Of a stretch of DNA of 64,000 bases, positions 23,428-59,907 are shown piece after piece (position 1 is the stretch's first letter; the number at the start of each line of letters is the position of its first letter). The notes below the pieces were generated by a model. The model did not search any database. It saw only the letters and a program-made list of their open reading frames with translations, and was not told the origin of the DNA. The stretch lies in the NCBI RefSeq assembly GCF_000730165.1, contig NZ_CP022111.1:1612001-1676000 (forward strand). Reading direction: 5' to 3'. A program made the translations under genes and the position numbers. The DNA comes from Nitrospirillum viridazoti CBAmc (GTDB lineage: Bacteria > Pseudomonadota > Alphaproteobacteria > Azospirillales > Azospirillaceae).

Positions 23428-23970
23428 GTGGCCTACACCTTGCGCAAGGCGACATTGGCGGACAAGCCGGCGTTGCAGGCCTTGATCCAGGCCTCCGCCC
23501 GGGGCCTGAGCGGGGACCACTACACGCCCGAGATGGTGGAGGGCGCGCTGGCCGGCGCCTTCGGCGTGGACAGCGACCTGATCCATGATCAGACCTATTT
23601 CGTGGCGGAGGAGGCGGACGGCCTCTTCGTCGGCTGCGGCGGGTGGAGCCGGCGCATGACCCTGTTCGGCGGGGATGCCCGCCCGGATCGTAGCCCGCAG
23701 ATGCTGGACCCGGCCCGCGACCCCGCCCGCATCCGCGCCTTTTTCGTCCATCCCCAGCGCGCGCGCCAGGGCATTGGCCGCGCCCTGCTGGAAGCTTGCG
23801 AGGCGGAAGCGCGGGCGGCGGGCTTTCAGGCGCTGGAACTGATGGGCACCCTACCCGGCGTCCCGCTCTACCGCGCCCTGGGCTTCCACCCCACGGGCGA
23901 GGTGCTCCACCCCCTGCCCAACGGGCAGACCATCGCGTTCGTGCCCATGCGCAAGGAGTTGGGGGCTTAG
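23428..23970 (+). CDS. GNAT family N-acetyltransferase
   Basis: A 180-residue acetyltransferase, presumably cytoplasmic. It begins YTLRKATLADKPALQALI, the usual first strand and helix of the fold. The acetyl-CoA binding motif is clear in IRAFFVHPQRARQGIGRALL, and the C-terminal part LMGTLPGVPLYRALGFHPTGE is classical. I placed the start at a GTG preceded by GGGAGAGG six bases upstream; an in-frame ATG 27 bp earlier is the alternative. The substrate is unknown. A palindromic repeat element follows directly. Confidence 0.88.
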   Translation: MAYTLRKATLADKPALQALIQASARGLSGDHYTPEMVEGALAGAFGVDSDLIHDQTYFVAEEADGLFVGCGGWSRRMTLFGGDARPDRSPQMLDPARDPARIRAFFVHPQRARQGIGRALLEACEAEARAAGFQALELMGTLPGVPLYRALGFHPTGEVLHPLPNGQTIAFVPMRKELGA

Positions 23971-24017
23971 AGCAGATCGCCCAGAGGTGGAATCACCTTT
24001 GGGCGTGAAGCTGCTCG
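23971..24017. repeat. REP-like palindromic element
   Basis: A 47-bp nested inverted repeat: GAGCAG...CTGCTC outside, CGCCCA...TGGGCG next, and AGGTG GAAT CACCT at the centre. It lies between convergent genes. Elements with a GGTGGAATCACC core are, from memory, scattered through several alphaproteobacterial genomes; only one copy was noticed in this window. Confidence 0.6.
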
Positions 24018-24032
24018 CAGACAGACTCAGCG

Positions 24033-24068
24033 AGAGCCGGCTGCGTCTGGTTTTACGCAGGCGGCTCT
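24033..24068. terminator. Hairpin between convergent genes
   Basis: A long stem AGAGCCG-G-CTGCGT pairs with ACGCAG-G-CGGCTCT around an 8-nt loop containing TTTT. It abuts the stop codon of the MocR-like gene and probably ends transcription from one or both sides. Confidence 0.55.
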
Positions 24069-25491
24069 AGCCCTGCCGGATCGCCGCCGCCAGGATGCGT
24101 ACGGCGGGAGCCATCGCCGCCTCCGCCGTGCCGGCGAAGCCCAGGACGAAGCCGCCGGCGGGTGCGGATCCGTGGTAATAGGGGGAGAGGGCCGCCGCCT
24201 TGACGCCCCGCGCCAGGACGGCCTTCGCGATGGCAGCGTCGTCGCCCGGCACTCGCAACCGCGTCACCAGATGCAGGCCGGCCTCGGGATTGCCGGCAGC
24301 ATTCAGCACATCGGCGGCGTGCTCAGCCAGGGCCGCCATCAGGGCCTGGCGCCGGGCGCGATAGAGGGGGCGCATGCGCCGCACGTGAGCGGCTAGGCGA
24401 CCCTGGGTGATGAAGCGCGCCAGGATCTGTTGCGTGAGGCCCGGCGCCCCCCGGTCCTGCATCCACTTCGCATTGGCGAACCGGTCCGCCAGGGCCGGTG
24501 GCACGATGAGGTAGCCCAGGCGCAGGCCCGGGGCCAGAACCTTGCTGAAGGTCCCCAGATAGAGGACCCGCCGCCCGCCGTCCAGGGTATGCAGCGGCGT
24601 CAGCGGCCGGCCGCCGTAGCGATATTCCCCATCGTAATCGTCCTCTAGCACCCAAGCATTGGCCCTTTCGGCCCAATCAAGCAGCGCCAGGCGGCGCCCG
24701 AGGCTGAGGGTTGCGCCCAAGGGATATTGGTGGGTTGGGGCGACCAGGGCCAGGCGTGCGCCAGGCCGGGCGGCCAAGCCGGCGGCCACATCCATACCGT
24801 CGCCATCCACCGGCACGGGCACAATCTCCAGCCCCGCCGCCGCCAGGGCTGACCGGCCGGCGACATAGCCCGGCTCCTCGAACCAGACGGCGTCACCGGG
24901 AGACAGCAGGGTGCGGGCCACCAGGTCGATGCCCTGCTGGGCACCGCTGACGATAATGACCTGGCCGGGGGTGCACGCGATGCCGCGGGCCACGGCAACA
25001 TAATCGGCGATGGCGGCACGCAGCTCCGCCGTGCCGCTGGGGTGCCCATAGGCCAGCAGGTGCGCCGGACGTCCGCGCTGGGCCGCCATCCCCGCCTTGG
25101 CCCAATCGGCCCAGGGGAACTGGTCCAGGGCGGGGATGCCGACCGCCAGGGGCATGGGGGGCGCCGTCGGCGCTGTGGGACTGCCGGATGCCGGGGTGCC
25201 GGGCACGGCACGGGGTGCGATCGTGGCCACCCCCTCGGCCACGTACATCCCGGCCCCGACACGGCCCTGCACATAGCCCTCGGCCACCAGTCGATCATAC
25301 GCCTGGACAACAGTGATGCGGGCCAGCCCCTGGTCGCGTGCCAGTTCCCGGCTGGACGGCAGCCGCGTGCCGGCAGGCAGGCGGCCGGACAGGGCGGCAT
25401 CGCGGAAATAGGCGACGATCTGGTCCTGCAGCGACGTGGACGCCTGCCGGTCCAGCATCAGGCTGTTCCAGAGGGGAGCGATGGCGGACAT
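24067..25491 (-). CDS. MocR-type transcriptional regulator (GntR HTH-aminotransferase)
   Basis: A 474-residue PLP-dependent regulator. The N-terminal winged helix of the GntR family (GTRLPSSRELARDQGLARIT, VVQAYDRLVAEGYV, about residues 15-85) is fused to a class-I aminotransferase-like domain. That domain includes the EDDYDGEYRYGG segment and the PLP lysine in LYLGTFSKVLAPGLRLGY. Such proteins sense pyridoxal phosphate or amino-acid-like ligands and commonly control a divergently transcribed gene. Here that is the PaiB-like gene, 127 bp away. The specific ligand cannot be told; PdxR-like and other MocR branches are equally possible. Confidence 0.92.
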   Translation of the reverse strand: MSAIAPLWNSLMLDRQASTSLQDQIVAYFRDAALSGRLPAGTRLPSSRELARDQGLARITVVQAYDRLVAEGYVQGRVGAGMYVAEGVATIAPRAVPGTPASGSPTAPTAPPMPLAVGIPALDQFPWADWAKAGMAAQRGRPAHLLAYGHPSGTAELRAAIADYVAVARGIACTPGQVIIVSGAQQGIDLVARTLLSPGDAVWFEEPGYVAGRSALAAAGLEIVPVPVDGDGMDVAAGLAARPGARLALVAPTHQYPLGATLSLGRRLALLDWAERANAWVLEDDYDGEYRYGGRPLTPLHTLDGGRRVLYLGTFSKVLAPGLRLGYLIVPPALADRFANAKWMQDRGAPGLTQQILARFITQGRLAAHVRRMRPLYRARRQALMAALAEHAADVLNAAGNPEAGLHLVTRLRVPGDDAAIAKAVLARGVKAAALSPYYHGSAPAGGFVLGFAGTAEAAMAPAVRILAAAIRQG

Positions 25492-34786: not shown

Positions 34787-35977
34787 ATGGCCGAGGATAA
34801 AAAGGAAGTGATGGCGCTCAGCGCCGTCATGGCAACGCCCCCGGGGGAAACCACTCAGGCCTGGCCCCCCGCGGACGCCGTTGGTCGATGGACCGACGTC
34901 TATTTCAAGCGCACCCGTACCATCGTGGAGCGGCACGGCGACGTTCCCGTCACCTACGCCGTTTTCATGCGGCGGCCCGTTGTGTTCGCCCCCCGGCTGG
35001 CGCTGGACTGGCTCAAATCGGTGGCGGCGGCCCGTGGCTTCACGCCGGAAATCGAGGTCCGCTACCACGAAGGGCAGTGGATAGGTGCTGGCGAACCCAT
35101 GATGTGGATCACTGGGCCCTTCTCACAGCTCGCAGAGTTAGAGACTCTATTCTTGATGAAGCTGGGCCCAGCTTGTGTGGCCGCTCATAACGCCTTCGTA
35201 ATGAGCGCAGGCCTGCCCAAATCCGCCTTTCTGGCCATGGACGCCCGCCATTGCGCCGGTACCGAAATGGCCGACCTGATGGCCTATGCCGCCAGCGTCG
35301 GCTCAAAACGGGCCAAGCGCAAGGTCGGCGCCATTGGCTTCATCGGCAACGCCACAGATGCCACCGCCCATTATTTCGGTCAAACCCACGGCTTCGGCAC
35401 CATGCCGCACGCCCTGATCGGCTACGCCGGTTCCACCGTCAAGGCGGCCGAGCTTTACCACGATACCTTTCCCGGCGAAGCGATGACCGTGCTGGTTGAT
35501 TATTTCGGCCGTGAGGTCAGCGACACGCTCGCGGTGTGCCGACGTTTTCCTGAGCTGGCCGCTACGGGCAAGCTGTCGGTCCGACTGGACACACCCGGCG
35601 GACGCTTCGTCGAGGGCTTGGATCCTCCGCAAAGCTACGCAGTGTTGGAGCGCCGCGCGCCGGACAGCATCCGGGGATACCGGGATGAAACCGAGCTGCG
35701 CTATCTGATCGGCGCCGGCGTTTCCGCCGCCGGTCTGCACTGGGTACGCGAGAACCTGGACCAAGCTGGTTTCACCAAGGTGCGCATCGTCGCCTCAAGC
35801 GGTTTCAGCCCCGCCAAGTGCCGGGTCATGGCCGATGCCCAGGCGCCCATCGACGTGGTGGGCACCGGCAGCTTCCTGCCCGAACATTGGGGGGAAACCT
35901 ATGCCACTGCCGACATTGTCGCCTATGATGGCGTGGCCCGGGTGAAGATGGGACGCGAGTTCTTACTGAAACGCTAA
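34787..35977 (+). CDS. pncB: Nicotinate phosphoribosyltransferase
   Basis: This cytoplasmic enzyme of the NAD salvage pathway converts nicotinate and PRPP to nicotinate mononucleotide. The 396-residue protein shows the family path: N-terminal WTDVYFKRTRTIVERHGD, the MDARHCAGTEMADLMAYAAS segment, GFIGNATDATAHYFG, GTMPHALIGYAG and, near the end, VRIVASSGFSP and DVVGTGSFLPE. It is the last clearly chromosomal gene before the transposon. A strong hairpin terminator follows 17 bp after its stop, and transposon end repeats begin about 110 bp beyond the stop. Confidence 0.92.
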   Translation: MAEDKKEVMALSAVMATPPGETTQAWPPADAVGRWTDVYFKRTRTIVERHGDVPVTYAVFMRRPVVFAPRLALDWLKSVAAARGFTPEIEVRYHEGQWIGAGEPMMWITGPFSQLAELETLFLMKLGPACVAAHNAFVMSAGLPKSAFLAMDARHCAGTEMADLMAYAASVGSKRAKRKVGAIGFIGNATDATAHYFGQTHGFGTMPHALIGYAGSTVKAAELYHDTFPGEAMTVLVDYFGREVSDTLAVCRRFPELAATGKLSVRLDTPGGRFVEGLDPPQSYAVLERRAPDSIRGYRDETELRYLIGAGVSAAGLHWVRENLDQAGFTKVRIVASSGFSPAKCRVMADAQAPIDVVGTGSFLPEHWGETYATADIVAYDGVARVKMGREFLLKR

Positions 35978-35993
35978 TTCCCCAAGCAGGAAA

Positions 35994-36039
35994 GCCCCCG
36001 GGCGGCCTTTCCGTCACTCGGGAAAGGCCGCCCGGGGGC
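35994..36039. terminator. Strong hairpin terminator after pncB
   Basis: A stem of about 19 bp (GCCCCCGGGCGGCCTTTCC pairing with GGAAAGGCCGCCCGGGGGC, with 8 unpaired nt between) follows the pncB stop. It is probably the intrinsic terminator and marks the edge of core DNA. Confidence 0.85.
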
Positions 36040-36089
36040 GTTCTCGACATGATGCGGGGACGTTACTTAACGCCTTTGACTTTCATCCC

Positions 36090-36218
36090 TTTTCATGGAA
36101 ATCCGGATCTTGGACGTCTGAGAGCCTCAGGAAACCTGGGGGGCTTTTCATAGAATTCCGGATTCCTTTTCATGGAATGCCGGATTCAGGCCGGTCTTTG
36201 TCATAGAACGCCGGATTC
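36090..36218. repeat. Transposon end: four TnsB-type binding repeats
   Basis: Four direct copies of a 21-bp motif TTTTCATRGAANNCCGGATTC occur at 36090-36110, 36145-36165, 36167-36187 and 36198-36218. This is the layout of a Tn7-like end, where TnsB binds several 20-22 bp sites. The two middle copies are back to back; the others are spaced 30-55 bp. The exact terminus, expected as TGT with a 5-bp duplication, could not be placed and lies somewhere in 36040-36090. I searched by eye for inverted copies further right and found none. Confidence 0.85.
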
Positions 36219-36308
36219 GTGTCGGCTGTGTCGTTGGCCCGGCCCCTTATTGGAGTGGCCGAGGGACTTGATTCGGAGAGATATGTCGCGCACCTCGCGC
36301 CGATTTAT

Positions 36309-38168
36309 CTATCCGATGATCCGGTCGATATCACTGCGCTCATAAAGATACATCTCGCCGCCATCGACGGAGGGACCGGAAATCGGTCGTGCTCCGCTGT
36401 ACAGAAGCGTCGAGTTGACTGATTTGACATCTAAACCGCGCTGGGCCGCAACGTCTCTGGCGAGCATGTACCTTCCAGAAAAGTCGCGGAAATCCTTGTT
36501 CAAGACCTTGGCACGGCGGGTGACGCGTCCGACCTTGTCCCTGGATTTCAGGATGTCGTTTTGCACCCAAAGTCGAACCGACTTGGTCTGAACGTTCAGC
36601 TTGGCCGCAATGTCGGAAACGGCCAGAACGTCCTGGCGAAGCTTCACCGCCAACTTCTTCACCGCGTCGATGGTGAAAACCAGATTGGTAAATCCCCGGG
36701 ATCCCGCCAGCCTCCCGGCTGGAAGCAAGGTTCCCTCGACGACAGCGCGATATACCGTCGCGGCGTTCCGGTCGTCATAACTCATCGGCATGCGTCTGAT
36801 GAGGTTGGCCGTCGTGATCATGTCTTTGCCCAGCGGCAACGGCAGTTCCGTCAGTTCCAGGCGGTTGACGGCGTCCAGGAGATCCTGGACTTCTGCCCTG
36901 AGAAGCGGGTGCTTAAAGAATGTGGTGGCGATGGGCTCGGATGCCACGGTGAGAAGACCGGCGTCCTCCATCTGCCCAAGGGTCCGATCATTGACCCCCA
37001 GCATGGCCCTGGCGGCCTTGCCATCAATGTACCGCTCGACCTCGGCTTGGATGTCCAAAACCTTCTGGGGGTCGAGCCGAGAACCGAAGCCTTTGCCCGT
37101 TCCCTTGACCAAGAACATGTCGCGTTCCTCGGCCAGACGCATGAGTCGAGGCATTGAGGTCCCCAGGAGGCGAATAGCCTCCTGGGGAAGGAAGAAGGAC
37201 CGCGATGGATTGGCACGGCGCGCGCGGACGACGGCCCTGGCTTTGGTTACCAGCGTGACATCACCGGCGACATACTGGCTGAAGGTGCCGGTAATGGGCC
37301 TGAAGGCAGGATCCTTATCCTGTTTCAGGATCCATTTAGCGGTAACGCCGATGTCGCGGTACATCCGCTCGTGCTGGTCCTGACGATCAGCCGCCCCCTG
37401 CCGAAGCCAATCGATATGGCGGTAGAAGGAATGGGGCCAGTCCGCGCAGGCCTGCCAGCCGATGTTCAGGTAGGCAAGGACTCGTTCGGGATGATGCCGA
37501 CCGATTTTGACCGCCGCGACATTCAACAAGGTGTCGTGGACGCATTGGCCCAGCATGTAGATGGTCTTCAGCAGGCAGCCGACATCCATGCCTGCCAGCC
37601 CTTCCGGCGGGGGCTTACCTTCGAGGAGTGAAACAACCGCTTTCAGGCCTTCAATGTCGTCAGGGGCAGGCTCGGGGTCGATGACGCGGTAGTCGGCACC
37701 GCAATGCACGCAGTGGGTCAACTTGCTGGTCAGCCAGTTGAGTGGCCCCCTGCACTCGGCACACCGGTCGACCAGCATGACGTTGTGATGGGGGCAGGCC
37801 ACCATGAACACGAAGTCCCAGACAGCGCGATGATAAGGGGCTTCAGCCAGGCACAACGGGCAGCATTTCCGCCAGATGAGGGAGACGAGTTCCTTCGGCA
37901 GCGTGTGCCCGAGGAGGCGCACGTGTCGGGTATCGGCTGCGCGGTAGGACATGCGTTCCAGCTCGTCAGGCGTCATCGACAGGAGGTGGCGAAGGGGCTC
38001 CATGTCGGTATCCGACAGCATGAAGGCGCGGGCCGCCATGAGGCGCGGAGCTACATATGTCAGCACGGCCCAAGGGGTGGGCCTGAAGTTCTCTTCAGCA
38101 GACCTGGCGACGAAACCAAGGAACCCTTCATCAACGTAGGGCACTAGCGGGAAAATCAATTTGAACAT
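36309..38168 (-). CDS. TniQ/TnsD-family target-selection protein
   Basis: A 619-residue TniQ-domain protein expected to recognise the insertion site and recruit TnsC. The N-terminal TniQ domain carries four cysteine/histidine pairs for zinc at about residues 104-155: CCPLC, CPHH, CAEC and CVHC. A long C-terminal part contains helix-turn-helix-like units, for example VSDIAAKLNVQTKSVRLWVQ, and an Arg/Lys-rich region suited to sequence-specific DNA binding. Its size matches TnsD rather than short CRISPR-type TniQ proteins (about 400 residues or less). It starts 2 bp after the tnsC stop. Confidence 0.88.
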   Translation of the reverse strand: MFKLIFPLVPYVDEGFLGFVARSAEENFRPTPWAVLTYVAPRLMAARAFMLSDTDMEPLRHLLSMTPDELERMSYRAADTRHVRLLGHTLPKELVSLIWRKCCPLCLAEAPYHRAVWDFVFMVACPHHNVMLVDRCAECRGPLNWLTSKLTHCVHCGADYRVIDPEPAPDDIEGLKAVVSLLEGKPPPEGLAGMDVGCLLKTIYMLGQCVHDTLLNVAAVKIGRHHPERVLAYLNIGWQACADWPHSFYRHIDWLRQGAADRQDQHERMYRDIGVTAKWILKQDKDPAFRPITGTFSQYVAGDVTLVTKARAVVRARRANPSRSFFLPQEAIRLLGTSMPRLMRLAEERDMFLVKGTGKGFGSRLDPQKVLDIQAEVERYIDGKAARAMLGVNDRTLGQMEDAGLLTVASEPIATTFFKHPLLRAEVQDLLDAVNRLELTELPLPLGKDMITTANLIRRMPMSYDDRNAATVYRAVVEGTLLPAGRLAGSRGFTNLVFTIDAVKKLAVKLRQDVLAVSDIAAKLNVQTKSVRLWVQNDILKSRDKVGRVTRRAKVLNKDFRDFSGRYMLARDVAAQRGLDVKSVNSTLLYSGARPISGPSVDGGEMYLYERSDIDRIIG

Positions 38169-38170
38169 GG

Positions 38171-39163
38171 CTACAGCAGTTCCTTCAGCGCCTGATCGGT
38201 TTTACGCGGCCGGGGGAGGCTGAGTTTCTCCGTGGTGGGCGCGGGCAGCACCTTCAGGGAATGCTTATCGGACCGGAACGGATTGGGCTGTCGGCGCTCT
38301 GCCCTGACCTGTCCCCTTTCGAAGGCTTCAGCGAGGAGTTCCTGGCTTAGGCAGGGCAATGGAGAGCTGCGTTCAACCAGCGCCATTTCCGCCGCCATTT
38401 GGAGCCATTTGGTGGTTTTTCCAATTAAGCCGTCAGAAGCGATCCAAAGGCGAAATGCCATGTCATCGTCGAACAGGTTCGACGGCGCTGGGAGGCCCAT
38501 GCGTTCTTCATACATGTAGAGGAAAGATTGGTAGATATCCCGGTCCGCCTGTTTGAACCAATCGAAGGGCTCCAGACGTTCAGACCATCCATTCCGACGC
38601 TCCGACTGGGAATTTGTATCGACGACCTCGGCTCCCTCGGGCTGACCCGCGAGAATCACCGGACAGACAGCGGCGTTCAGGATGGATTTGATTAGGTCGC
38701 CTGAAGCATACGCGTTGGCTCGCTTGTTACCCGCGCTGACGATGTGCTGGATCTCGTCGAGGATGAGGAGTTTAGGCGCCGCTCTGGCCAGCGTCCGGGT
38801 AACAATATGGGTGTACTCGGACACGCTGCGATTCGAGGGAACATCGCCCAGCGCTTTTAAGATCGCGATGGCCAAGGCCTTCAGCGTCGATTGAGGAGGA
38901 ATCTCAACATATAGGACCGGGTGATAGAGATAGCGATCCCGCTGTTCAGCCGGGTACTCGTCGACAATCTCCTTGAGGAGGGTAGACTTGCCGGTACCCG
39001 TAGGCCCCAGCAACGTCAACGACCGGGCTTCCTTACCGCAACAACCAATGTCTATTGCGTTGCGAATCCACTGCTTGATTTGAGCCTGTTTAGGCAGGTC
39101 GATAGCGATTTTTACAATGTTTCTGAAGCGTTCAAGTCGCTCTTCACGATCCATGTTAGACAT
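38171..39163 (-). CDS. TnsC/TniB-type AAA+ transposition regulator
   Basis: A 330-residue AAA+ ATPase linking target selection to the transposase. Walker A is LLGPTGTGKSTLLKEI (about residue 45) and Walker B is KLLILDEIQHI; sensor residues follow in CPVILAGQPEGAEV. Start MSNMDREERLERF at 39163 overlaps the end of tnsB by 8 bp; a longer open frame upstream lies inside tnsB and was rejected. A basic C-terminal tail (TEKLSLPRPRKTDQALKELL) may contact TniQ or DNA. Confidence 0.9.
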   Translation of the reverse strand: MSNMDREERLERFRNIVKIAIDLPKQAQIKQWIRNAIDIGCCGKEARSLTLLGPTGTGKSTLLKEIVDEYPAEQRDRYLYHPVLYVEIPPQSTLKALAIAILKALGDVPSNRSVSEYTHIVTRTLARAAPKLLILDEIQHIVSAGNKRANAYASGDLIKSILNAAVCPVILAGQPEGAEVVDTNSQSERRNGWSERLEPFDWFKQADRDIYQSFLYMYEERMGLPAPSNLFDDDMAFRLWIASDGLIGKTTKWLQMAAEMALVERSSPLPCLSQELLAEAFERGQVRAERRQPNPFRSDKHSLKVLPAPTTEKLSLPRPRKTDQALKELL

Positions 39164-41306
39164 CCTTGTTTCCACCCCGACCGGTGACCCCCATACGGCG
39201 AGCCATCTCTGCAAACCTTGCTGCGCTGGAAGCTGACGAGTTGGTCCCCGAGGCCGATAAATCCGATGCGACGGGTTCGGTCGGGGACGGGAGTAGTTCC
39301 AAGACTTCCGGTGTTGGCGCGGAAGCAGTGAAGTCCTGGCCGATGTTGTCGTCCTCGTCCGGAATGGTGAATTCCCCAGCAAGAACCGAGTCCGGCAGGT
39401 GCTCCAATGCGTCCGAAATGGAAAGGTCGCTTAGCGCCGGATTGATGGGACTGGGGATCTGGTGCTTAGGGACGCCATAAGCAGCTTTCAGCCGTCGAAC
39501 CTTTCGGTCTTTGGGGACATGCTTGTCTTGGATGTACCGCTGTAGGTCGGCGTGGGCTGCCGCGACGTTGTCCTCGCTATATTTTTCCGGTCGGGCCTTG
39601 ATGAGTTTCAGGGCCAGGGTCTGCTGCACGAGTGTCACACCGCGCGCGTCGAACATCCGCCGGGAACCGGGTGATTGTTGGACGGTAACGAAGCGCTCTC
39701 GGCCGGGGTCGTAGACCTGGATGGCTCCCAGGTCTTTAGGGTCGATCTTGCACATCACCGTGCCGCCGGGGTTAAAGGCGGGGCTGGCGCGAATGCTCGC
39801 GATTTCCGGCCCGTTGTAGATCAGGTTGTTGATCCTGACGCCGTAATCGAACAGCCGCCGATGCGTTGTCAGACAGAACGCCGCTTTCAACACCTCCGGT
39901 TCGGGCAGCGGAATAATGTGGTGCCGCGCCACGCTTTCCAGCCACCGGCGATGAGGCGCGTCGTTGATTCCGGTGTGGAACTGTTGGGAATAGACGTCGA
40001 TAATCCAGCGATGGACCAGGTAGTCCAGCTCCTCCAGCGTAACGACAGGCTGCATTTCGACGGCTTCTTCGTTCCGCCGCCGATAAAAGTCTTCGAAGGT
40101 TCGACCCGGGATGTAGCGGACCAGGCTGCGGGTGAAGGTGCCGAAGAATCGTTCGATTGCCGCCTTGTCGTTGGGCGTCTCGCGGGCCGCGAAGGTGATG
40201 TTGCAACCAAGCAGCTTGAGCATCGCCGAGAAGTCATTGGCGACGAACTGGCTCCCCAGGTCCGCGAAGTAATTTTCGGACAGCCCCCAGCACGGCCACG
40301 CCCCTTTGATGTCAGGGTACTTTTCCTTCACATACGTTTTTGGGTAGGTCGCGTGATGGATGCATTCGATGGCAGCAGCGACAGATTGCTCGAAGCCGAT
40401 GTAGCGGCCAACCGGCATCCTGCTGAAATGGTCGTAAGCGATAATGACGACGGGACGGTCGATGGGATTTCCATCCTTGTCGACCACGATTAAGTCGGTC
40501 TTGAGCAGATCCAGTTCAGTGCGCTCGTGGTGGCGCTCAGTCGAGACATGTCCGGTCTTCGGCCGATAAATCCGGTCTGCCACAGCGACACCTTTCCGGT
40601 TCGCGGTGGCCACGTATCGGTCGTAGGTTTTGATTTTCCGGTAGACGGTGGAGTAGCTCGGCACCCACGTGTCGCCGGTCAGCCGATTGCGGCGCGTGAA
40701 CACGTCGCGGACCTGTCTGTAGACGTTGCTCACGTCGTACTGCATTGAATTCAGGAAGAGGCCCTCGACCGTTTCGTCAAACAGGTTCTGCGCATCGAGC
40801 TTCTGCTGTGAGCCGCGGCGCCCGCGCTGGGCAATGCGGTCCATCAAGGCCTGGAAATCGCGCCCGCTTTTCTCCCATTCGGTGATCCAACTCTGGAGCG
40901 TGCCCGGTTGAGGAGGGTGACGGTCGTTCAGCACGGCGGCCGTGGCTTCGATGACAGGGACGAGTTCCTGCCGCTTCCGGGTTTTCAGCCCACTCCTTTC
41001 CCAAGCCTGGACGTAGGTCACTCGGCGCAGGGTCCGGGCCTTCAGGTCTTCATCGACTTGGAGCTGGGCCAGCGATGTCAGGTCGCTCTTGCGGCCTTCC
41101 TTGAAGGCGCGTTCTTCAGCACCGCCGACGCGATACGCTTGTCCCCTCGCCATCAGGTCCAGCAGCTCGTCTTCGCGAACCACGAAAGGGGAGCTGTTGG
41201 CGACATCAAGGAACACCAGGTTGCGGCATGCGTCACGGCGCTCGAAAGCAACCATTCGCCCTTCGATGCGCAGGTACTGGTCGCGGAAGAGGGCAATGCT
41301 GCTCAT
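39156..41306 (-). CDS. TnsB/Mu-type DDE transposase
   Basis: A 716-residue DDE transposase that binds the end repeats and joins 3' ends to the target. HTH-type DNA-binding segments occupy the first part (including WVPSYSTVYRKIKTYDRYV). The catalytic core has the first aspartate in RTELDLLKTDLIVVD, the second in ENYFADLGSQFVAND and the glutamate in ETPNDKAAIERFFGTF. A beta-barrel and an acidic Ser/Pro-rich C-terminal tail follow, the part known in TnsB to interact with TnsC. It starts with an ATGA overlap to tnsA. Confidence 0.92.
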   Translation of the reverse strand: MSSIALFRDQYLRIEGRMVAFERRDACRNLVFLDVANSSPFVVREDELLDLMARGQAYRVGGAEERAFKEGRKSDLTSLAQLQVDEDLKARTLRRVTYVQAWERSGLKTRKRQELVPVIEATAAVLNDRHPPQPGTLQSWITEWEKSGRDFQALMDRIAQRGRRGSQQKLDAQNLFDETVEGLFLNSMQYDVSNVYRQVRDVFTRRNRLTGDTWVPSYSTVYRKIKTYDRYVATANRKGVAVADRIYRPKTGHVSTERHHERTELDLLKTDLIVVDKDGNPIDRPVVIIAYDHFSRMPVGRYIGFEQSVAAAIECIHHATYPKTYVKEKYPDIKGAWPCWGLSENYFADLGSQFVANDFSAMLKLLGCNITFAARETPNDKAAIERFFGTFTRSLVRYIPGRTFEDFYRRRNEEAVEMQPVVTLEELDYLVHRWIIDVYSQQFHTGINDAPHRRWLESVARHHIIPLPEPEVLKAAFCLTTHRRLFDYGVRINNLIYNGPEIASIRASPAFNPGGTVMCKIDPKDLGAIQVYDPGRERFVTVQQSPGSRRMFDARGVTLVQQTLALKLIKARPEKYSEDNVAAAHADLQRYIQDKHVPKDRKVRRLKAAYGVPKHQIPSPINPALSDLSISDALEHLPDSVLAGEFTIPDEDDNIGQDFTASAPTPEVLELLPSPTEPVASDLSASGTNSSASSAARFAEMARRMGVTGRGGNKDV

Positions 41307-42004
41307 AGCGCTTTCTTCCCCGTGACAAGGCAAACTGACGTGTTGGCGGATAAGGGCTGCCCCATGCTGAGCCGCAGCTTGCCTTTGAGGGCTAACCCGT
41401 AGACGTGGGCCAGGCCCGCGACCTCAGTGGCGCCGATGGCCTGGATGACCTTGCCCACGGTGTCAGCGCCGTTGGATATCGCCTCGATGACGGAAAGCTC
41501 GCTGGCCAGGTTTAAGGCCGCGCTTTTCCACCGGTTCAGTTCGACCGCGTTTTTGAACCTGGGTTCGAGGTGGACGAACCGGTCGTCGAGGCAGCGATAG
41601 TCGATCCCCAACTGGCCATACGCCGTGGTCAGGAGGTCGATGTCGCAATATCGAGCCTTCGGCCTCTGTCTCGTGTCGATGATGTCGACAGCGTAGGTGG
41701 CGGCCTCCGCCTGCACGATGAATGCGACAACGTGGGAGGTCGGCTTGCCGTTGAGGACATAGTGGGCGACGTGTGCCCTTGACTGGAACCTGATGACGGA
41801 GGGGTCTGCCTGGAGCAGGTACATGAAGTCGCGGTCAATATCGCGGTACCAGCGAGCTTGTCCTTCGACAGCTTTCCTAGTCGCGAAAATGCCACTCTGC
41901 CGGGCCCGATAACCTTTAGGCGGAGTACCATCAGCTTCTGAAAGTCGAATAGCTCCAGGCCCGAGACCTCGATCAGGTCCCGAAAACGAAATGCTCGAAG
42001 GCAT
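41303..42004 (-). CDS. TnsA-like endonuclease subunit, catalytic residues altered
   Basis: A 233-residue TnsA-family protein by position and partial similarity: RDFMYLLQADPSVIRFQSR followed by a strand pair and YGQLGIDYRCLDDRFVHLEP. In Tn7, TnsA cuts the 5' ends using E63, D114, Q130 and K132. Aligning TDFLV with VAFIV and AIQVK with AVDII gives D57, A94, D107 and I109 here. The residues needed for cleavage therefore seem lost. It may be structural only, in which case the element would transpose by copying. My alignment is by eye. Coupled to tnsB by an ATGA overlap. Confidence 0.8.
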   Translation of the reverse strand: MPSSISFSGPDRGLGPGAIRLSEADGTPPKGYRARQSGIFATRKAVEGQARWYRDIDRDFMYLLQADPSVIRFQSRAHVAHYVLNGKPTSHVVAFIVQAEAATYAVDIIDTRQRPKARYCDIDLLTTAYGQLGIDYRCLDDRFVHLEPRFKNAVELNRWKSAALNLASELSVIEAISNGADTVGKVIQAIGATEVAGLAHVYGLALKGKLRLSMGQPLSANTSVCLVTGKKAL

Positions 42005-43014: not shown

Positions 43015-43248
43015 ATGTCCGAGAAGGCGCCCGGCTTTTGGCACGACTTGCTGATCGAGGAAATCGTCGAGGGCTTGGAATGGGCCCGATCCCCGCTGCC
43101 GGTGCTGATCCCGCCAGTAGAGCAGTTGGCTGACGTCGCGGAGGGGATGGTTCCGATCAGCCTGAAGCGGCGCCCCAATGTTCATGTCGACTTGTCGGCG
43201 CTGGTGGGCCTGAAGACGGCGGCTAACCCGACTGCGCCTCGACATTAA
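43015..43248 (+). CDS. Small hypothetical protein
   Basis: A 77-residue protein with an excellent ribosome-binding site (GGAGG five bases before the ATG) and strongly GC-rich third codon positions, which argue that it is real. It reads MSEKAPGFWHDLLIEEIVEGLEWARSPLPVL (split), is predominantly helical and acidic at the front, and has no signal peptide. I do not recognise it. It converges with and overlaps the vapC-like gene by 26 bp. Confidence 0.6.
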   Translation: MSEKAPGFWHDLLIEEIVEGLEWARSPLPVLIPPVEQLADVAEGMVPISLKRRPNVHVDLSALVGLKTAANPTAPRH

Positions 43249-43684
43249 TCGGGCTATCGTAGGGGTTCAGCAGTTCAAGGCCCGTGCTGGCGGCGATGAG
43301 GGAAAAGTGGCGTATGTTGCGGGTCGCTATTATCGCGCCCGTGTCCAGGGCTGTTGCCGCGATCATGAGGTCCCGCTCGAAGCTTGGGGTCCCGTCATGG
43401 GGAACGGAGATGGAGAGTGCCCCATGGAGCCTGGCGATCTGGCCGTCGTAGGGAATGATCGGCAGCGCCAATGTCAGGGCGCGGAACCAGAGGTCGTTGT
43501 CGTTGGCCTCGGCTATTCGGCCCTGGATACGCAGGCGGGTTATCCCGCGTTCTATCTCCGAGATCACCACGGCAGGGACCAAGAGCTGGTCGGGGGACGT
43601 GTCAGTCCACCATCTCAGCAGTTCCGGATGCTTAGTGCCGCGCCGGAGATCCGACAGGACACAGGTGTCGACAACGTATGTCAC
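43223..43684 (-). CDS. vapC: PIN-domain toxin (VapC type)
   Basis: A 153-residue PIN-domain ribonuclease. The first catalytic aspartate is in MTYVVDTCVLSDLRRG, the acidic residues of the second motif in VISEIERGITRL, and the third in FERDLMIAATALDTGAIIATRN. This is a complete set for metal-dependent RNA cleavage. The preceding gene, ending 3 bp upstream, encodes a Phd/YefM-like antitoxin, giving a standard VapBC-type operon in the cargo region, probably serving island maintenance. Confidence 0.92.
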   Translation of the reverse strand: MTYVVDTCVLSDLRRGTKHPELLRWWTDTSPDQLLVPAVVISEIERGITRLRIQGRIAEANDNDLWFRALTLALPIIPYDGQIARLHGALSISVPHDGTPSFERDLMIAATALDTGAIIATRNIRHFSLIAASTGLELLNPYDSPINVEAQSG

Positions 43685-43687
43685 CGG

Positions 43688-43966
43688 TCATTTCCCATCC
43701 TCCCCGGCCTGCCTGCCGACTATTCTGGGGATCCAGGTGAACGGGGTGTCACCGGCCCGGCCACCAGGGTAGGCGGCTGTCGATCCGGCGGCCAAGTGAT
43801 CTTTCAGTAGAGATCGAATGGCCAGCCAGTCGGCTTGGGAGATCACGACGGCAATGTTGGCGCCGCTGCTGGCGAGGGCTTGGGGGCCGTCGTGTTGGCA
43901 TGCCGTGACGACCTCGGCAACACCATCGCCGAGAGGCCCCAGTTCCCAGGAGTCCTTGTTCGCCAT
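43688..43966 (-). CDS. Phd/YefM-like antitoxin
   Basis: A 92-residue antitoxin directly upstream of the PIN toxin (3-bp gap). It has the WELGPLGDGVAEVVTACQHDGPQAL start typical of Phd/YefM proteins, with VAVVISQADWLAIRSLLKDHL-like strand and helix (here IAVVISQADWLAIRSL). It is expected to bind and neutralise the toxin and repress the operon. The family is assigned from partial similarity and operon position. Confidence 0.85.
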   Translation of the reverse strand: MANKDSWELGPLGDGVAEVVTACQHDGPQALASSGANIAVVISQADWLAIRSLLKDHLAAGSTAAYPGGRAGDTPFTWIPRIVGRQAGEDGK

Positions 43967-44298: not shown

Positions 44299-44460
44299 AT
44301 GTGTGGTCGCTATTCCATCACGACTCCTCCAGAAGCTCTTCGTCAGCTCTTCGCCACGCTGGGTCCGCTCCCGAATTTCGCACCCCGATACAATCTTCCT
44401 CCGACCACCTCGGCGCCAGTCACCCGGCTGCATTCGGAAACCGGCGAGCGGCACCTTGGT
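44299..44460 (+). pseudogene. SRAP (YedK/HMCES-like) gene, N-terminal fragment
   Basis: The first 55 or so codons are a clear SRAP domain start: MCGRYSITTPPEALRQLF and then APRYNLPPTTSAPVTRL. The initiator-adjacent Cys2 would normally crosslink to abasic DNA. After GERHLG the similarity ends abruptly and the sequence changes into a fragment of dnaE2. The gene has therefore lost its catalytic core and is not functional as an SRAP protein. Confidence 0.85.
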
Positions 44461-44521
44461 CTGTCATCGGCGGCATTATTCCGTACCGATTCACAGCGAA
44501 GGTTTCTGTCAGTGCAGTGGA

Positions 44522-45214
44522 GAGCGGCTGGCTGGAGCGGATGCGTTTGGCAGCCTGGGCGTGGACCGGCGCCGGGCGCTATGGGAGGTCAAACGACTCG
44601 GGGACGCGCCGTTGCCGCTGTTCGAAGCCGCTGATGGCTGGGGCTTGCTGGGCGACAACCGGCCACCGGTCGAGTTCGGCGAGGAGCCCTTCCTGACGCT
44701 GCCTGCGATGCCGCTGGGCGAGGCCGTCCGCTAGGACTACCGAACCCTGTACCTGTCCTTGAAAGGCCATCCTTGCGCCCTGCTGCGCGCCCAGCTTGCG
44801 GCATTGGGGATGACGCCCGCCGTCATGTTGCCCAGTCTCAAGGACGGCGCCCGGGTGGCGGTCGCGAGCTTGGTCCTGATCCGTCAGCAGCCGGGCACGG
44901 CGTCAGGGGTGATCTTTGAGACCTTGGAGGACGAAACTGGCATCGTGAACGCCATCATTTGGCCGTCGTTGTTCGCGAAGCAGCGCCGGGAAGTGTTGAC
45001 GGCCACCATGCTGGGTGTCCATGGGCGCCTTCAGCGTGAAGGCGACGTCATCCACGTCATCGCTGACCGGCTGGTGGATCTTGGTCACATCCTCAGGGGG
45101 CTGACCGAACTGGATGGACCGTTCGAAACGCCGCTGCCGCGGGCTGATGAGGTTCGGCGGCCAGAGCCAGGCTCGTTGCGGCTGGTGTATGGGGAGGGAC
45201 GGAATTTCAAGTAA
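44522..45214 (+). pseudogene. dnaE2: Error-prone DNA polymerase DnaE2, C-terminal fragment with in-frame stop
   Basis: Only the C-terminal part of DnaE2 remains: ERLAGADAFGSLGVDRRRAL, LPAMPLGEAVR, then after a TAG stop at 44732-44734 the same frame continues DYRTLYLSLKGHPCALLRA. The OB-fold region GTASGVIFETLEDETG and HVIADRLVDLGHIL follows. Full DnaE2 has over 1,000 residues and is part of the ImuA-ImuB-DnaE2 translesion cassette. The missing polymerase domains plus the stop show decay. An ATG at 44759 could still give a short product. Confidence 0.88.
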
Positions 45215-47860: not shown

Positions 47861-48688
47861 CTAGCCCCCATCTTGCCCCGATACATGGCAGATTGCATGC
47901 TTGCGTCTTTGGAAAACCTCGGTATCAGATGGCCATATGGCGCCGATGGAAGTCTTATCCACGTTAAACGGCAGCGGCAGCGCGAACCCGGCAGCCTGTT
48001 CCACCTTGGCGACAGACACGGCATAGGGTGTCAGATCACCCTTGGGGGTCGGCTGGTTCTGCATGATGAACGCTGCGACCTGGCCACTGCCGTCAACCAC
48101 AACCTTCCAGTACGCGGCCGGGACGCCGACCCCATCAGCGCCGATGGTTTCCACCGGTTCCTTCCAGATTGGGCCGTCCATCACGATCAGCGGCCCCCGG
48201 TCAAGAGCCCAGGCACGCGTCGCTTCCTCCAGTGCTTCCCACTCCCACTGGTTCAGGTGGGACGCCTGCGGACTCATGTTTGATAGATAGAAGCTCTCCC
48301 GCTGAACCTGTGCGTCCCATTCAAAATCGGAGTTGGGTGCAAAGTGGCCGCGGTCATACACACCGGCGTGCCCTTTATAGTCCGCGAGTTCAGCACGATG
48401 ATCAGGTGGCAGATCAGGATCGGGCGCGAATGAATCCTTGCGGGGCAGACACCCCAGCGCATGCTCAGCAGTCAGGCTCCAGGACACGAAGTCGGGGACC
48501 AGTTTCACGTCGTCGTGCAGAACGACGTAGGCCCGGCGGCACAGCGGCGTTAGACGGGGCTCAGTCCCCGACCACTGCGGAGCACCCCAAGGGGCCTGCG
48601 CCTGGCAAGCCGCCGGAATCTCTGCCGATTGCGCGCTGCCGACGCCCAAGCATGCCAGGACGACAAAAGCCCCCAAATGCACCCGCAT
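47861..48688 (-). CDS. Secreted DNA/RNA non-specific endonuclease (NUC1 family)
   Basis: A 275-residue secreted nuclease. A signal peptide (HLGAFVVLACLGVGSAQSAE) precedes the mature enzyme. The active-site motif DRGHFAPNSDF and downstream metal-binding asparagine region LSNMSPQASHLNQWEWEALE are the hallmarks of the bacterial Serratia-nuclease family. Six or so cysteines suggest disulfides in the periplasm. I chose MRVHLGAFVV as start. The last 25 residues may be foreign, because sequence similarity fades after IGAIWPSD. A role in nucleic-acid scavenging or attack on neighbours is possible. Confidence 0.9.
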   Translation of the reverse strand: MRVHLGAFVVLACLGVGSAQSAEIPAACQAQAPWGAPQWSGTEPRLTPLCRRAYVVLHDDVKLVPDFVSWSLTAEHALGCLPRKDSFAPDPDLPPDHRAELADYKGHAGVYDRGHFAPNSDFEWDAQVQRESFYLSNMSPQASHLNQWEWEALEEATRAWALDRGPLIVMDGPIWKEPVETIGADGVGVPAAYWKVVVDGSGQVAAFIMQNQPTPKGDLTPYAVSVAKVEQAAGFALPLPFNVDKTSIGAIWPSDTEVFQRRKHAICHVSGQDGG

Positions 48689-48806
48689 TACATTCCCCAA
48701 CAGTGGCGACGCTATCAGGCCGAAGCAGCCAATACGAATTGCGACCACTCCGTCGAAACCAGTGCCCGCCGTAGCAGCCCATCATTTAAGCTATTGAAAA
48801 TGTGAA

Positions 48807-52309: not shown

Positions 52310-52834
52310 TCACAGGAACAGCAAGTCGTCGCTGGTGCTGGGGCTGACCAGGTCGTCGAACCCTGGGACAGGGGTGGCGAATAGGCCGCCGCGCCAAGCA
52401 TCGAGGTGCCGCCGAACAACGAGAATGCCGTCCTGGGTGGCATTCGTGACCAAGGCCAGGGGCGCCTGTCCGCCGAAAAGCGGACCGCTGTTGGGACTCT
52501 TGAGCCACCGGATGCCGTCATCGTCCCGCGCAAAAATCGTTCGCAGCGCCCGGTGGATTCCCAGCACTGCGGAGATCCTGAGTAACGTATCAATGGGCAG
52601 CGCCAGCTCGGCACCGGACAGGGCCCTGGTCGCCCATCTGCGATAGGCGGAGTGCCCAGGCTTACCAAGGACGTTAAGCTGCTCTCGGGCGGTAAGCCCC
52701 CAGCGGTCAGCGATTGCCAGGAATGCCCTCATGCCGGGACCGCTGACCCGGCGGACGTCGGCGATGGCGAGGTCCATGATGACGACCATCCCAGGACCGC
52801 CGGGCGAGCCTTCCTTTCTGGTGTCGTCGATCAT
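52310..52834 (-). CDS. MbcA/ParS/Xre-type antitoxin, orphan
   Basis: A 174-residue protein with the DUF2384 C-terminal domain. It contains YRRWATRALSGAELALPIDT, LRISAVLGIHRALRTIF and the family end motif GPLFGGQAPLALVTNATQDG followed by RRHLDAWRGGLF. Such antitoxins pair with RES-domain NAD-degrading toxins, normally encoded directly downstream. Here the downstream neighbour is the convergent S1/P1 nuclease, and no RES domain is found. Start at 52834 has GGAAGG upstream. It could be a solitary antitoxin guarding against related toxins. Confidence 0.85.
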   Translation of the reverse strand: MIDDTRKEGSPGGPGMVVIMDLAIADVRRVSGPGMRAFLAIADRWGLTAREQLNVLGKPGHSAYRRWATRALSGAELALPIDTLLRISAVLGIHRALRTIFARDDDGIRWLKSPNSGPLFGGQAPLALVTNATQDGILVVRRHLDAWRGGLFATPVPGFDDLVSPSTSDDLLFL

Positions 52835-52877
52835 CACAGACCTTCCGGTGGGCCATCCAGGACGGGGCACCCAGTGA

Positions 52878-52906
52878 ATGGCGCCCCAACAAGATTGGGG
52901 CGCCAT
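52878..52906 (-). terminator. Perfect 12-bp hairpin terminator
   Basis: ATGGCGCCCCAA and TTGGGGCGCCAT pair around a 5-nt loop directly after the stop of the secreted protein gene at 52912, separating it from the antitoxin gene. Confidence 0.7.
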
Positions 52907-52911
52907 CACCG

Positions 52912-54060
52912 TCACAGATGCGGTGCGCCGTTCTGCGGCTGCGTCGGCGCAGCCTTGGCCTGGAGCGTCGCTGCATCCGTCAGTGTTACCGAAAGAACCG
53001 GGGTGCCCGATTCACCCGCGTCGTATTCCATGCTGGTCTGGACGGCGTCGAGCGCCGCATACAGCTGGAAATCCTGCGGCCGCTTACCGACGCTCTGACC
53101 CCAGCCAAAGAACCGCTGGCTGGCCGCGGCGCCGGGCGGACCATATTTCGCGATCAGGCCCTTCCGAACATCGTCGACAACGGTCTTGGTGTACGTCAGC
53201 ACCTGCCGCACGGTGATGCTGGTAGCCTTGCCGTTGGCAACCTTGAAGGTGACGCACACCGTGCCCACCGCTGGCTTCGTCAATACGGTCATCGTGGAGC
53301 CACCCCCGCACGCCTGGTCGGATCCCATGACCAAGTTCTTGTCAGTGAAGGAGGCCTTTGCAGCGGCCGTCAGCTGGCCTTCTGTCATTCCAACTTTCAA
53401 GCCGCTGACGTCGAAATCGGCGGCGGCCTTGGCAGACGGGACCGGCGCCGCTGCCGACGGTGTAAATTCCGCCAACACCTTGCCATTGTCCGCAAGCTTC
53501 AGCGTAACCTTGCTGATCGCAACCAGCACCGTATAGCGGCTATCCAGCTTGCCGTTTGGGTCGCCCACACCCACGAAATGGCCTTCGACCTGGGCGATCA
53601 CACGCTGACGGTCGACCTTACGCGCCTCCTCCATCGGCAGCGGGAGCGGAACCGGCGCTCCATTCGAGAAGCCGATTTTATAGGTACGGCCGAAAACGAT
53701 TTGGCTCAGATAGTGGCCAGGGAGCAGGTCGTTGATGGTGTACTGGCCCGCGCTCCGGTCGTACTCGCCCAGTGTCACGTTCGTCAGGACCACCAGTGGC
53801 GTCGAGTCGTCAACCTTGGCTTGGGCGGCCCGGAGCCTGGCTTCTTCAGCTTTTTGGGCTTCTGGGCGGTCAAAATGGCTGGCGGTTGTTACTGGCTTTG
53901 CGCCAGCCGCCGCGCCCGCGACGTCGAGCGGGTCGCCGCTTTTCTTGTGATAGTAGAGGGCGGCCAGCTCGCCGGTCAGCTCCTCAGCCGCTTTGGCGCC
54001 GACCGCCCCAAGCAGCATCCCAGTCGCCACGACAGCGGCGACGGCAATCTTCAAAATCAT
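52912..54060 (-). CDS. Secreted hypothetical protein
   Basis: A 382-residue protein with a signal peptide (MILKIAVAAVVATGMLLGAVGAKA, cut into two runs: MILKIAVAAVVATG / MLLGAVGAKA). The mature part is beta-rich with an N-terminal region (LALYYHKKSGDPLD, VVLTNVTLGEYDRSAGQYTI) and a C-terminal region beginning FDVSGLKVGMTEGQLTAAAK. That region carries two cysteines (QACGGG, GTVCVTF) and a possible peptidoglycan or ligand-binding repeat. I do not recognise a family with confidence. It is high-GC and well formed, so it is probably expressed. Confidence 0.72.
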   Translation of the reverse strand: MILKIAVAAVVATGMLLGAVGAKAAEELTGELAALYYHKKSGDPLDVAGAAAGAKPVTTASHFDRPEAQKAEEARLRAAQAKVDDSTPLVVLTNVTLGEYDRSAGQYTINDLLPGHYLSQIVFGRTYKIGFSNGAPVPLPLPMEEARKVDRQRVIAQVEGHFVGVGDPNGKLDSRYTVLVAISKVTLKLADNGKVLAEFTPSAAAPVPSAKAAADFDVSGLKVGMTEGQLTAAAKASFTDKNLVMGSDQACGGGSTMTVLTKPAVGTVCVTFKVANGKATSITVRQVLTYTKTVVDDVRKGLIAKYGPPGAAASQRFFGWGQSVGKRPQDFQLYAALDAVQTSMEYDAGESGTPVLSVTLTDAATLQAKAAPTQPQNGAPHL

Positions 54061-58845: not shown

Positions 58846-59907
58846 TCACAAGACAGGACCATTCTTCAGCCGATCAGCATATTGGTAAGTAATCAATGCG
58901 CCTCTGGGTGTTTCTATCCAGGCATCTTCTTCATGAGAAATCTCGACGATCCGTGTTGCACTATCGGCCGCAAAATGGGTTCGGACCTTCTCAAGAATTT
59001 CGACCTCCTCGCCGGAGAGAGTACCACTTGGCACTTGAGGTCCTTTTGCAATCACACCAGAGATGTATGGACCAATGATCTGCTCTTCGTAGGTGACCGC
59101 ACCAATTTCACTCAGGCCCGAGTACACCATTTCATACAAATGAGGGACAGGACCCAGGTTAATGGCTGCGTAGCTTAGCCCCGTAATGCTCTGTCCATTT
59201 TTTCGGAAACAAAGGAAATCGGCATAAAACATAAGCTTGTTCAGCTTAGTCTTTGGCGTTCCTCGGTCAGCCAGAATCGCAACAGCTTGTCCCAGCCGCT
59301 GAAAATCGAGAGCTCTCCCTCCAATCATCAACTTCGATGTCCCGCGTATCTGGCGGGCAAAGACTGATAAAATCGATGGAAGTGCGGATTCGTTTTCCGA
59401 TACTTTCTCGACACGCCTAGCTTGGATGGATTGGTTTTCATGGAACGCGACCTTCGATATTTCGACGATCTCTTCCGGAACCGAATGTTTGGTATTCTCT
59501 TCAAACCACGGAGCCACCTCCGCCAAACGCCATAGAGGGGGCTCTGAAGAAACCGTTGGCGATGGGAAAGCCACATTCACCGACTTGATCTCACCCGATG
59601 CATATTTTCTCAGATTCTGGCGAGTAGTATCCAAGATTTCTGCAAGATCAGTAAGGTTGACGAGGTCTGGCCCAACCTCAAGTAAGATGGCCCCTGGAAG
59701 CGCTCGATAAGAGTCAACTATCGCAGACTCAACGGCATCCCCGGCGGTTTCTGCCTCTCGATTGAAATCGAGCACAATCCGTCCTGGCCTGCCTATTGAA
59801 GCAGTGGCATCATCACAGCCACTCTCAAGCAGAGCTTCGAGATAGTTCGCACCATCCTCATCCGAGGACGCAAGGCGAAACGTTAGGCAGAATTCAAAAT
59901 TCTTCAT
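58846..59907 (-). CDS. HTH-Panacea/SocA-like fusion protein (putative antitoxin)
   Basis: A 353-residue two-part protein. Residues 1-135: a small sensor-like front (MKNFEFCLTFRL, ALLESGCDDATASIGRPGRI, FNREAETAGDAVESAIVDSY) and a helix-turn-helix (LTDLAEILDTTRQNLRKYAS). I know this front as a regulator often next to small Cys-rich toxin-like genes. Residues 210-350: a Panacea/SocA (DUF4065)-like domain, KLNKLMFYADFLCFRKNG, ITGLSYAAINLGPVPHLYEM and so on. Panacea domains neutralise diverse toxins. GGAGG precedes the start. The upstream gene (59929-60171) is only 21 bp away. Fusion of these two halves is the unusual point. Confidence 0.75.
   Translation of the reverse strand: MKNFEFCLTFRLASSDEDGANYLEALLESGCDDATASIGRPGRIVLDFNREAETAGDAVESAIVDSYRALPGAILLEVGPDLVNLTDLAEILDTTRQNLRKYASGEIKSVNVAFPSPTVSSEPPLWRLAEVAPWFEENTKHSVPEEIVEISKVAFHENQSIQARRVEKVSENESALPSILSVFARQIRGTSKLMIGGRALDFQRLGQAVAILADRGTPKTKLNKLMFYADFLCFRKNGQSITGLSYAAINLGPVPHLYEMVYSGLSEIGAVTYEEQIIGPYISGVIAKGPQVPSGTLSGEEVEILEKVRTHFAADSATRIVEISHEEDAWIETPRGALITYQYADRLKNGPVL

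Follow-up and report, generated by a model that had tools for sequence, protein, structure and literature searches.

Tn7 combines TnsA, TnsB and TnsC with TnsD and has its attachment site, attTn7, at glmS. The usual terminus of Tn7-like elements is 5'-TGT, the TnsA nuclease of cut-and-paste elements has a catalytic Glu, Asp and Lys, and target immunity of the Tn7 type disfavours insertion near the element itself. Replicative transposition is connected with a loss of TnsA activity in excerpts of two papers (PMC8649781, PMC11406308), and those of the second give cointegrates as the route of elements that have no TnsA. We analysed a 64,000-nucleotide stretch of Nitrospirillum viridazoti CBAmc (NZ_CP022111.1, positions 1,612,001 to 1,676,000; the window), in which a first-pass annotation had placed a Tn7-like transposon just downstream of pncB. 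The genus sample comprised seven Nitrospirillum genomes, including the window's own (G000) and one taken as N. amazonense BR 11622 (G002). Extended coordinates carry the window numbering on past position 64000.

The core of the element is a minus-strand operon encoding a TnsA-like protein (41303-42004), the TnsB transposase (about 39156-41306), a TnsC/TniB AAA ATPase of about 330 aa (about 38171-39163) and a 619-aa TniQ/TnsD-like putative target selector (36309-38168), with tniQ nearest the left end. The operon had been recognised in the first-pass annotation and is backed by profile and PDB matches. TniQ matches Pfam TniQ (1.5e-14) and a PDB TniQ chain (3.8e-10), TnsC matches Pfam TniB (8.8e-24), and TnsB matches the PADLOC TnsB model (1.5e-25) and, at best, a PDB TnsB entry at 4.2e-40; all of the DDE residues are present in an alignment of TnsB to a PDB TnsB. 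The TnsA-like protein has an NCBIfam TnsA_like_Actin match under the cut-off (2.7e-4) and no Pfam match, and a C-terminal HTH match in TniQ is weak and below the cut-off. The starts of tnsC and tnsB, like the overlaps and near-abutments of the genes, were judged by eye. The combination that marks a Tn7-like element, a TnsB-type DDE transposase with a TnsC ATPase and TniQ, is present. In G002, an insert of 1.8 kb with an Xre/MbcA-type gene lies between the end repeats and tniQ (L061, about 1180-2984); a homologue of this gene is found in G000 at 52310-52915.

The element spans 50,200 bp in G000, from 36084 through the end of the window at 64000 to extended position 86283 (C2:1698283), and 47,892 bp in G002. 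Its limits are set by its ends and by the continuity of relatives across them, and its GC content is 0.574, compared with 0.658 and 0.680 in the flanks. The left end (36084-36218, plus strand) has the terminus CATCCC and, at positions 10, 65, 87 and 118 of the element, four putative TnsB sites. Four direct copies of TTTTCATRGAANNCCGGATTC start at 36090 (two mismatches), 36145 (none), 36167 (none) and 36198 (one), giving a spacing of 55/22/31. The four repeats beside the tns operon that had been noticed earlier are real: with up to four mismatches to TTTTCATRGAANNCCGGATTC on a single strand, none of five base-shuffled windows contained a match. At up to one mismatch, the motif occurs in 2 of the 82 family genomes checked, G000 and G002, which are the two with the close TniQ. 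A whole-genome search at up to three mismatches found 63 places, against 24 in the control. Scattered four-mismatch matches inside the island in the window (46519 and 59435), and an isolated three-mismatch copy in the G002 island (C6, about 229634), are relics or chance.

Cargo had been expected to run up to or past 64 kb, with the second end out of view and inverted repeat copies to be sought there. One strong inverted copy does lie to the right, at extended positions 86257-86283 (from contig position C2:1698257), 22 kb past the window. The right terminus matches the left from base one, CATCCC, and the inverted ends read 5'-CATCCCTTTTCATRGAAATCC. The two site arrays are mutually inverted, that of the right end consisting of one clear and one degenerate site. 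Inverted-repeat identity over the terminal 30 bases is 23/30 in G000 and 21/30 in G002, and the G000 and G002 ends are 87% (left) and 90% (right) alike. The terminal TGT and 5-bp duplication that had been anticipated are both missing: all four ends of the two elements are 5'-CAT, and the bases outside them are unmatched.

The cargo includes a VapC-like PIN-domain gene (2.4e-12) with a small upstream gene that has no Pfam match (43223-43966, minus strand), a DNA/RNA non-specific endonuclease gene (47861-48748, minus strand; Pfam, 1e-38) and a gene for a Panacea-domain protein, a candidate defence component assigned as PDC-M06B from Pfam and PADLOC matches (58846-59907, minus strand). The cargo proteins scanned include none recognisable as a resolvase. 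Further right lie an SbcC-like gene (L033:9161-12898; extended 73161-76898) and, by eye, an SbcD-like neighbour (76902-78125), both 89-92% identical at the nucleotide level between G000 and G002, and a CAP12/Pycsar TIR-domain gene that is likely to encode a defence effector (L034:2618-3520; PADLOC PDC-S35). A short SRAP fragment and a reading frame that by eye looks like the end of a DnaE-type polymerase, at 44299-45214, are probable gene remnants.

The left neighbour of the element is a pncB-like nicotinate phosphoribosyltransferase gene (34787-35977, plus strand; best NCBIfam match 1.3e-31, under the cut-off), present in all seven genus genomes at 92-97% amino-acid identity. Between it and the element lie an inverted repeat with 23-nt arms that are 96% alike, a probable terminator (35990-36043), and a fossil: the final six codons and stop of a convergent GTA-type holin gene (36063-36083, minus strand), the same 21 nt that end the whole gene in G001. 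In both carriers the left junction falls at this point, within the holin gene and 21 nt from its 3' end, and each carrier has its own sequence of the remnant. On the right, chromosomal sequence restarts in both carriers with TTAGCCCC, 102 nt upstream of the ATG of a Cro/C1-type regulator; all five genomes compared (G000, G001, G002, G003 and G005) have this gene intact. G001 and G003 are unbroken across both junctions, as are G004 and G005 across the left and G005 across the right; G001 and G003 track G000 to base 36083, enter the convergent holin gene and rejoin G000 at 86284. The five bases outside the ends are ACTTT or ATCTT on one side and TTAGC on the other, and a 5-bp target duplication was found at the junctions of neither G000 nor G002; its loss is expected if an adjacent deletion took place. 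Three similar AGGGTAAATTTCTCCC-like repeats, seen by eye and perhaps operators, lie upstream of the regulator (extended 86284-86385; ATG at 86386) and persist in the carriers, which have lost the operon described below. An intergenic repeat of about 115 bp elsewhere in the window (23967-24079) is 82% like one beside pncB in G004.

The element was correctly reported to start within about 110 bp of the pncB stop, 106 bp lying between them in G000. However, the suggestion that pncB is its attachment gene fares poorly, because the junction is constant in the holin gene whereas the distance to pncB varies (106 bp in G000, 98 bp in G002). The proposed comparison with an empty pncB 3' site in element-free relatives instead found a phage-like operon between the same flanks. 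Occupation of the same site was seen in two genomes and possibly reflects one founding event. Our literature search found no report linking Tn7-like elements with pncB.

The interval between the junction points is filled by a phage-structural operon in five of the seven genus genomes. It measures 33-37 kb in the four that can be measured (36,785 bp in G001, 36,815 bp in G003, about 34.5 kb in G004 and about 33.2 kb in G006; the G005 locus is split over contigs), and the 36.8 kb present in G001 and G003 is missing in the carriers. The operon terminase occurs once in each of these five genomes, has no match in G000 or G002 and, at E 1e-60 across 82 family genomes, was found in Nitrospirillum only. 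In G001, the operon encodes a terminase, a portal, a capsid-position protein, tail proteins, a baseplate hub, a megatron-like protein, the holin (Pfam GTA_holin_3TM, 3.1e-17) and an endolysin-like protein. It also contains an IS-like transposase ORF, and no phage integrase was noticed among the ORFs scanned. The capsid-position protein belongs to phrog_13692, of unknown function; its best phage matches (60%) are to two Brevundimonas phages and are annotated as hypothetical, and proteins labelled major capsid or head protein in two Arthrobacter phages and an Alicyclobacillus phage match more weakly. For the terminase, identity to phage proteins reaches no more than about 50% among the best 15 of 1641 records, all of which are under 60%.

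As in gene transfer agents of the RcGTA type, the operon has Pfam GTA holin, DUF2460 and baseplate hub matches above cut-off, weaker matches to distal tail, NlpC/P60 and megatron models, and a terminase and portal; unlike them, its five matched NCBIfam models are all below their cut-offs and its terminase was found, among the 82 family genomes, in Nitrospirillum only. Divergence at four-fold sites between G001 and G003, G004 and G006 is 0.23, 0.31 and 0.34 for the operon (23, 21 and 20 of 23 chosen ORFs matched, two to the same gene) and 0.17, 0.39 and 0.47 for pncB. These values are broadly alike, and the operon looks vertically kept and GTA-like. We considered whether it could be a later invader of the element's place and rejected this idea, as in relatives the holin frame reads across the left junction, and in the carriers its final 21 nt still lie beside pncB. 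A literature search for gene transfer agents together with Tn7 returned nothing relevant by title and the start of the abstract.

The element is rare. Full-length TniQ is found at one locus each in G000 and G002 (94% identity); G005 has a 41% match over 66 residues, and G001, G003, G004 and G006 have none. At the level of the class, TniQ was found in 1 of 385 genomes (E 1e-30), the window's own, and TnsB in 3 of 385 (1e-40), the window's own and two distant ones. A wider contig scan gave one locus, in N. amazonense BR 11622, which its coordinates indicate to be that of G002, and 22 plasmid records have TniQ matches, all under 60% identity. The G000 and G002 islands are largely collinear. Between them, dS is 0.25-0.32 in the tns genes (an over-long start being used for tnsC), 0.31-0.37 in the SbcC/SbcD-like pair and vapC, and 0.66-2.2 in other shared cargo. 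The flanks give 1.08-1.34 for three genes on the left and 0.18-0.79 for genes on the right. From this set we dropped 31 ORF pairs with dN/dS of at least 0.45 or zero dS as probable wrong frames, and some of the rows retained overlap in opposite frames. In 200-bp windows, the left flank of G000 is 90-97% identical to that of G001, 82-97% to G003 and 52-89% to G002, and on the right G000 is like G001 up to the junction. These patterns fit an old island, and suggest that its tns core may have been exchanged later. G003, close on the left, is about 70-87% identical to G000 and G001 over 0.2-2.4 kb of the right flank (extended about 86484-88683), where it is no nearer to G000 than G002 is; this stretch has likely recombined beside the locus.

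Searched as part of an alignment, the TnsA-like protein matches the TnsA part of a solved TnsA-TnsB fusion (7.7e-7). At the positions that we take to be the catalytic Glu, Asp and Lys, the alignment places D57, A94 and I109, and the LERD, YTPDF and IEVK motifs of a relative (L099) correspond to IDRD, HVVAF and VDII. L099 is the one protein with a complete catalytic set among the seven TnsA proteins aligned, of which two (L100 and L103) are nearly identical and two (those of the window and G002) are 91% identical; the changes in TnsA-like proteins are Asp to Ala or Gly and Lys to Ile. Between G000 and G002, dN/dS is 0.17 for tnsA and 0.13 for both tnsB and tniQ. As judged from sequence comparison, the TnsA-like protein is under purifying selection despite loss of the catalytic Asp and Lys, and it probably cannot cut the second strand. 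A structure predicted for the protein from two sequences had a pLDDT of 33 and was set aside.

On balance, we think it probable, with some reservation, that the 50.2-kb island replaced the conserved phage-structural, GTA-like operon by replicative intramolecular transposition with adjacent deletion. The element would have inserted at one of the two sites, the holin 3' end or the region upstream of the regulator, and would next have transposed replicatively into the other site of the same chromosome. All that lay between would have been deleted, and TnsB would have made both junctions. The move would be replicative because the TnsA-like subunit is probably unable to cut the second strand. Both element ends look whole, which makes a random deletion unlikely and points to the transposase, or to recombination between two copies, as the maker of the final arrangement. 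In favour of adjacent deletion are the intact inverted ends, the identical junctions of G000 and G002, the continuity of relatives across them, the absence of the terminase from the carriers, the missing duplication, the intact DDE residues of TnsB and the loss of TnsA residues under selection. Against it, TnsA inactivity is deduced from sequence, no resolvase was recognised in the part of the cargo scanned, the termini are 5'-CAT rather than TGT, and Tn7-type target immunity should disfavour such a move. In addition, the flanks of G000 resemble those of G001, which with G003 still has the operon, so that a single ancestral event requires the resulting allele to have been exchanged later, probably among congeners; the signs of exchange are only suggestive, as tns dS is far under that of the left flank and within the range of the right. 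Insertion onto a pre-existing deletion scar was rejected, as the element would have had to hit the scar exactly and a duplication would be expected.

The main rival, which we regard as rather unlikely, is homologous recombination between two copies of the element, one sited in the 3' end of the holin gene and the other ahead of the regulator, with loss of the operon and one hybrid copy left between unmatched flanks. This would equally account for the intact ends, the absent duplication and the loss of the operon, and leaves transposition chemistry unchanged, but two copies were seen in none of the seven genomes, G000 and G002 each have a single TniQ locus, and there is no convincing relic of an internal end save the isolated three-mismatch repeat in the G002 island. 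TnsD-directed cut-and-paste insertion at a fixed site defined by the 3' end of pncB, with an incidental loss of the operon, seems improbable. In its favour, the element has its tniQ end towards pncB, which is conserved, and TniQ is long with its weak, sub-cut-off C-terminal HTH, long C-terminal regions having been proposed as attachment-site readers in excerpts of PMC10293859; however, there is no duplication, the insertion lies within the holin frame, the distance from pncB differs (98 versus 106 bp), and an incidental deletion is unlikely to stop exactly at the terminal base of the element. We give a similarly low chance to separate site-specific events in the lineages of G000 and of G002, with both sites as TniQ targets and insertion and deletion occurring twice at the same bases. 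The likeness of G000 to G001 up to both junctions, and tns dS values below those of the left flank, would suit such events. Against them, the islands are largely collinear and much of their shared cargo has diverged as far as the chromosome or further (dS 0.66-2.2), which argues for one old island. Several chromosomal genes of the right flank are also as little diverged as tns (dS 0.18-0.38).

The locus offers a naturally occurring example, exact to the base, of a Tn7-like element in place of a conserved phage-derived operon, together with a TnsA homologue that selection maintains although its nuclease residues are gone. Both speak to the ways in which Tn7-like islands become established away from classic safe sites and phage-derived clusters disappear. 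We raise, as a tentative wider proposal, a branch of Tn7-like elements in which TnsA is a conserved non-nuclease subunit and transposition is replicative and deletes neighbours; here a domesticated phage or GTA operon would have been swapped for a defence-bearing island, leaving two mutually exclusive alleles at the locus.

Like Tn7, the element has a single operon made up of a tnsA-like gene, tnsB, tnsC and a long gene of the tniQ/tnsD type, and its ends carry arrays of sites of about 20 bp. It differs from Tn7 in its 5'-CAT termini, the lack of a 5-bp duplication, a TnsA-like protein without the catalytic Asp and Lys, the position of tniQ nearest the end, and its neighbours, which are pncB and a phage holin remnant rather than glmS. 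Predicted replicative transposition is shared with Tn5053 and type V-K CAST, which have no TnsA; unlike these, the window element keeps a TnsA homologue under purifying selection, with no resolvase recognised in the proteins scanned and no CRISPR part noticed. A similar layout is seen in two Azospirillaceae loci, L100 (G040) and L103 (G031), the latter sharing its end sequences with L121 on A. oryzae plasmid NZ_CP054617.1. Scores in a scan for the 55/22/31 spacing were 86 for the window, 87 for L100, 76 for L103 and a weaker 62 for L101, the best at other loci or strands being 46-59; L102 (59) was chance-like on reading, and no convincing array was found in L097, L098, L099, L102 or L120. For the G040 element, about 110 kb of sequence rightward of the left end held two inverted matches, with four and five mismatches, and no strong right end; none was found near tnsA for the A. 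oryzae element. L100 and L103 share the tnsABC-tniQ order and the site spacing of the window but have another repeat sequence, two tniQ genes, a TnsB that is about 26% identical and, at the matching position, 5'-TGTCC, their termini being putative. That they have TGTCC where the window has CATCC suggests that the window terminus lies at the expected place, with its trinucleotide changed.
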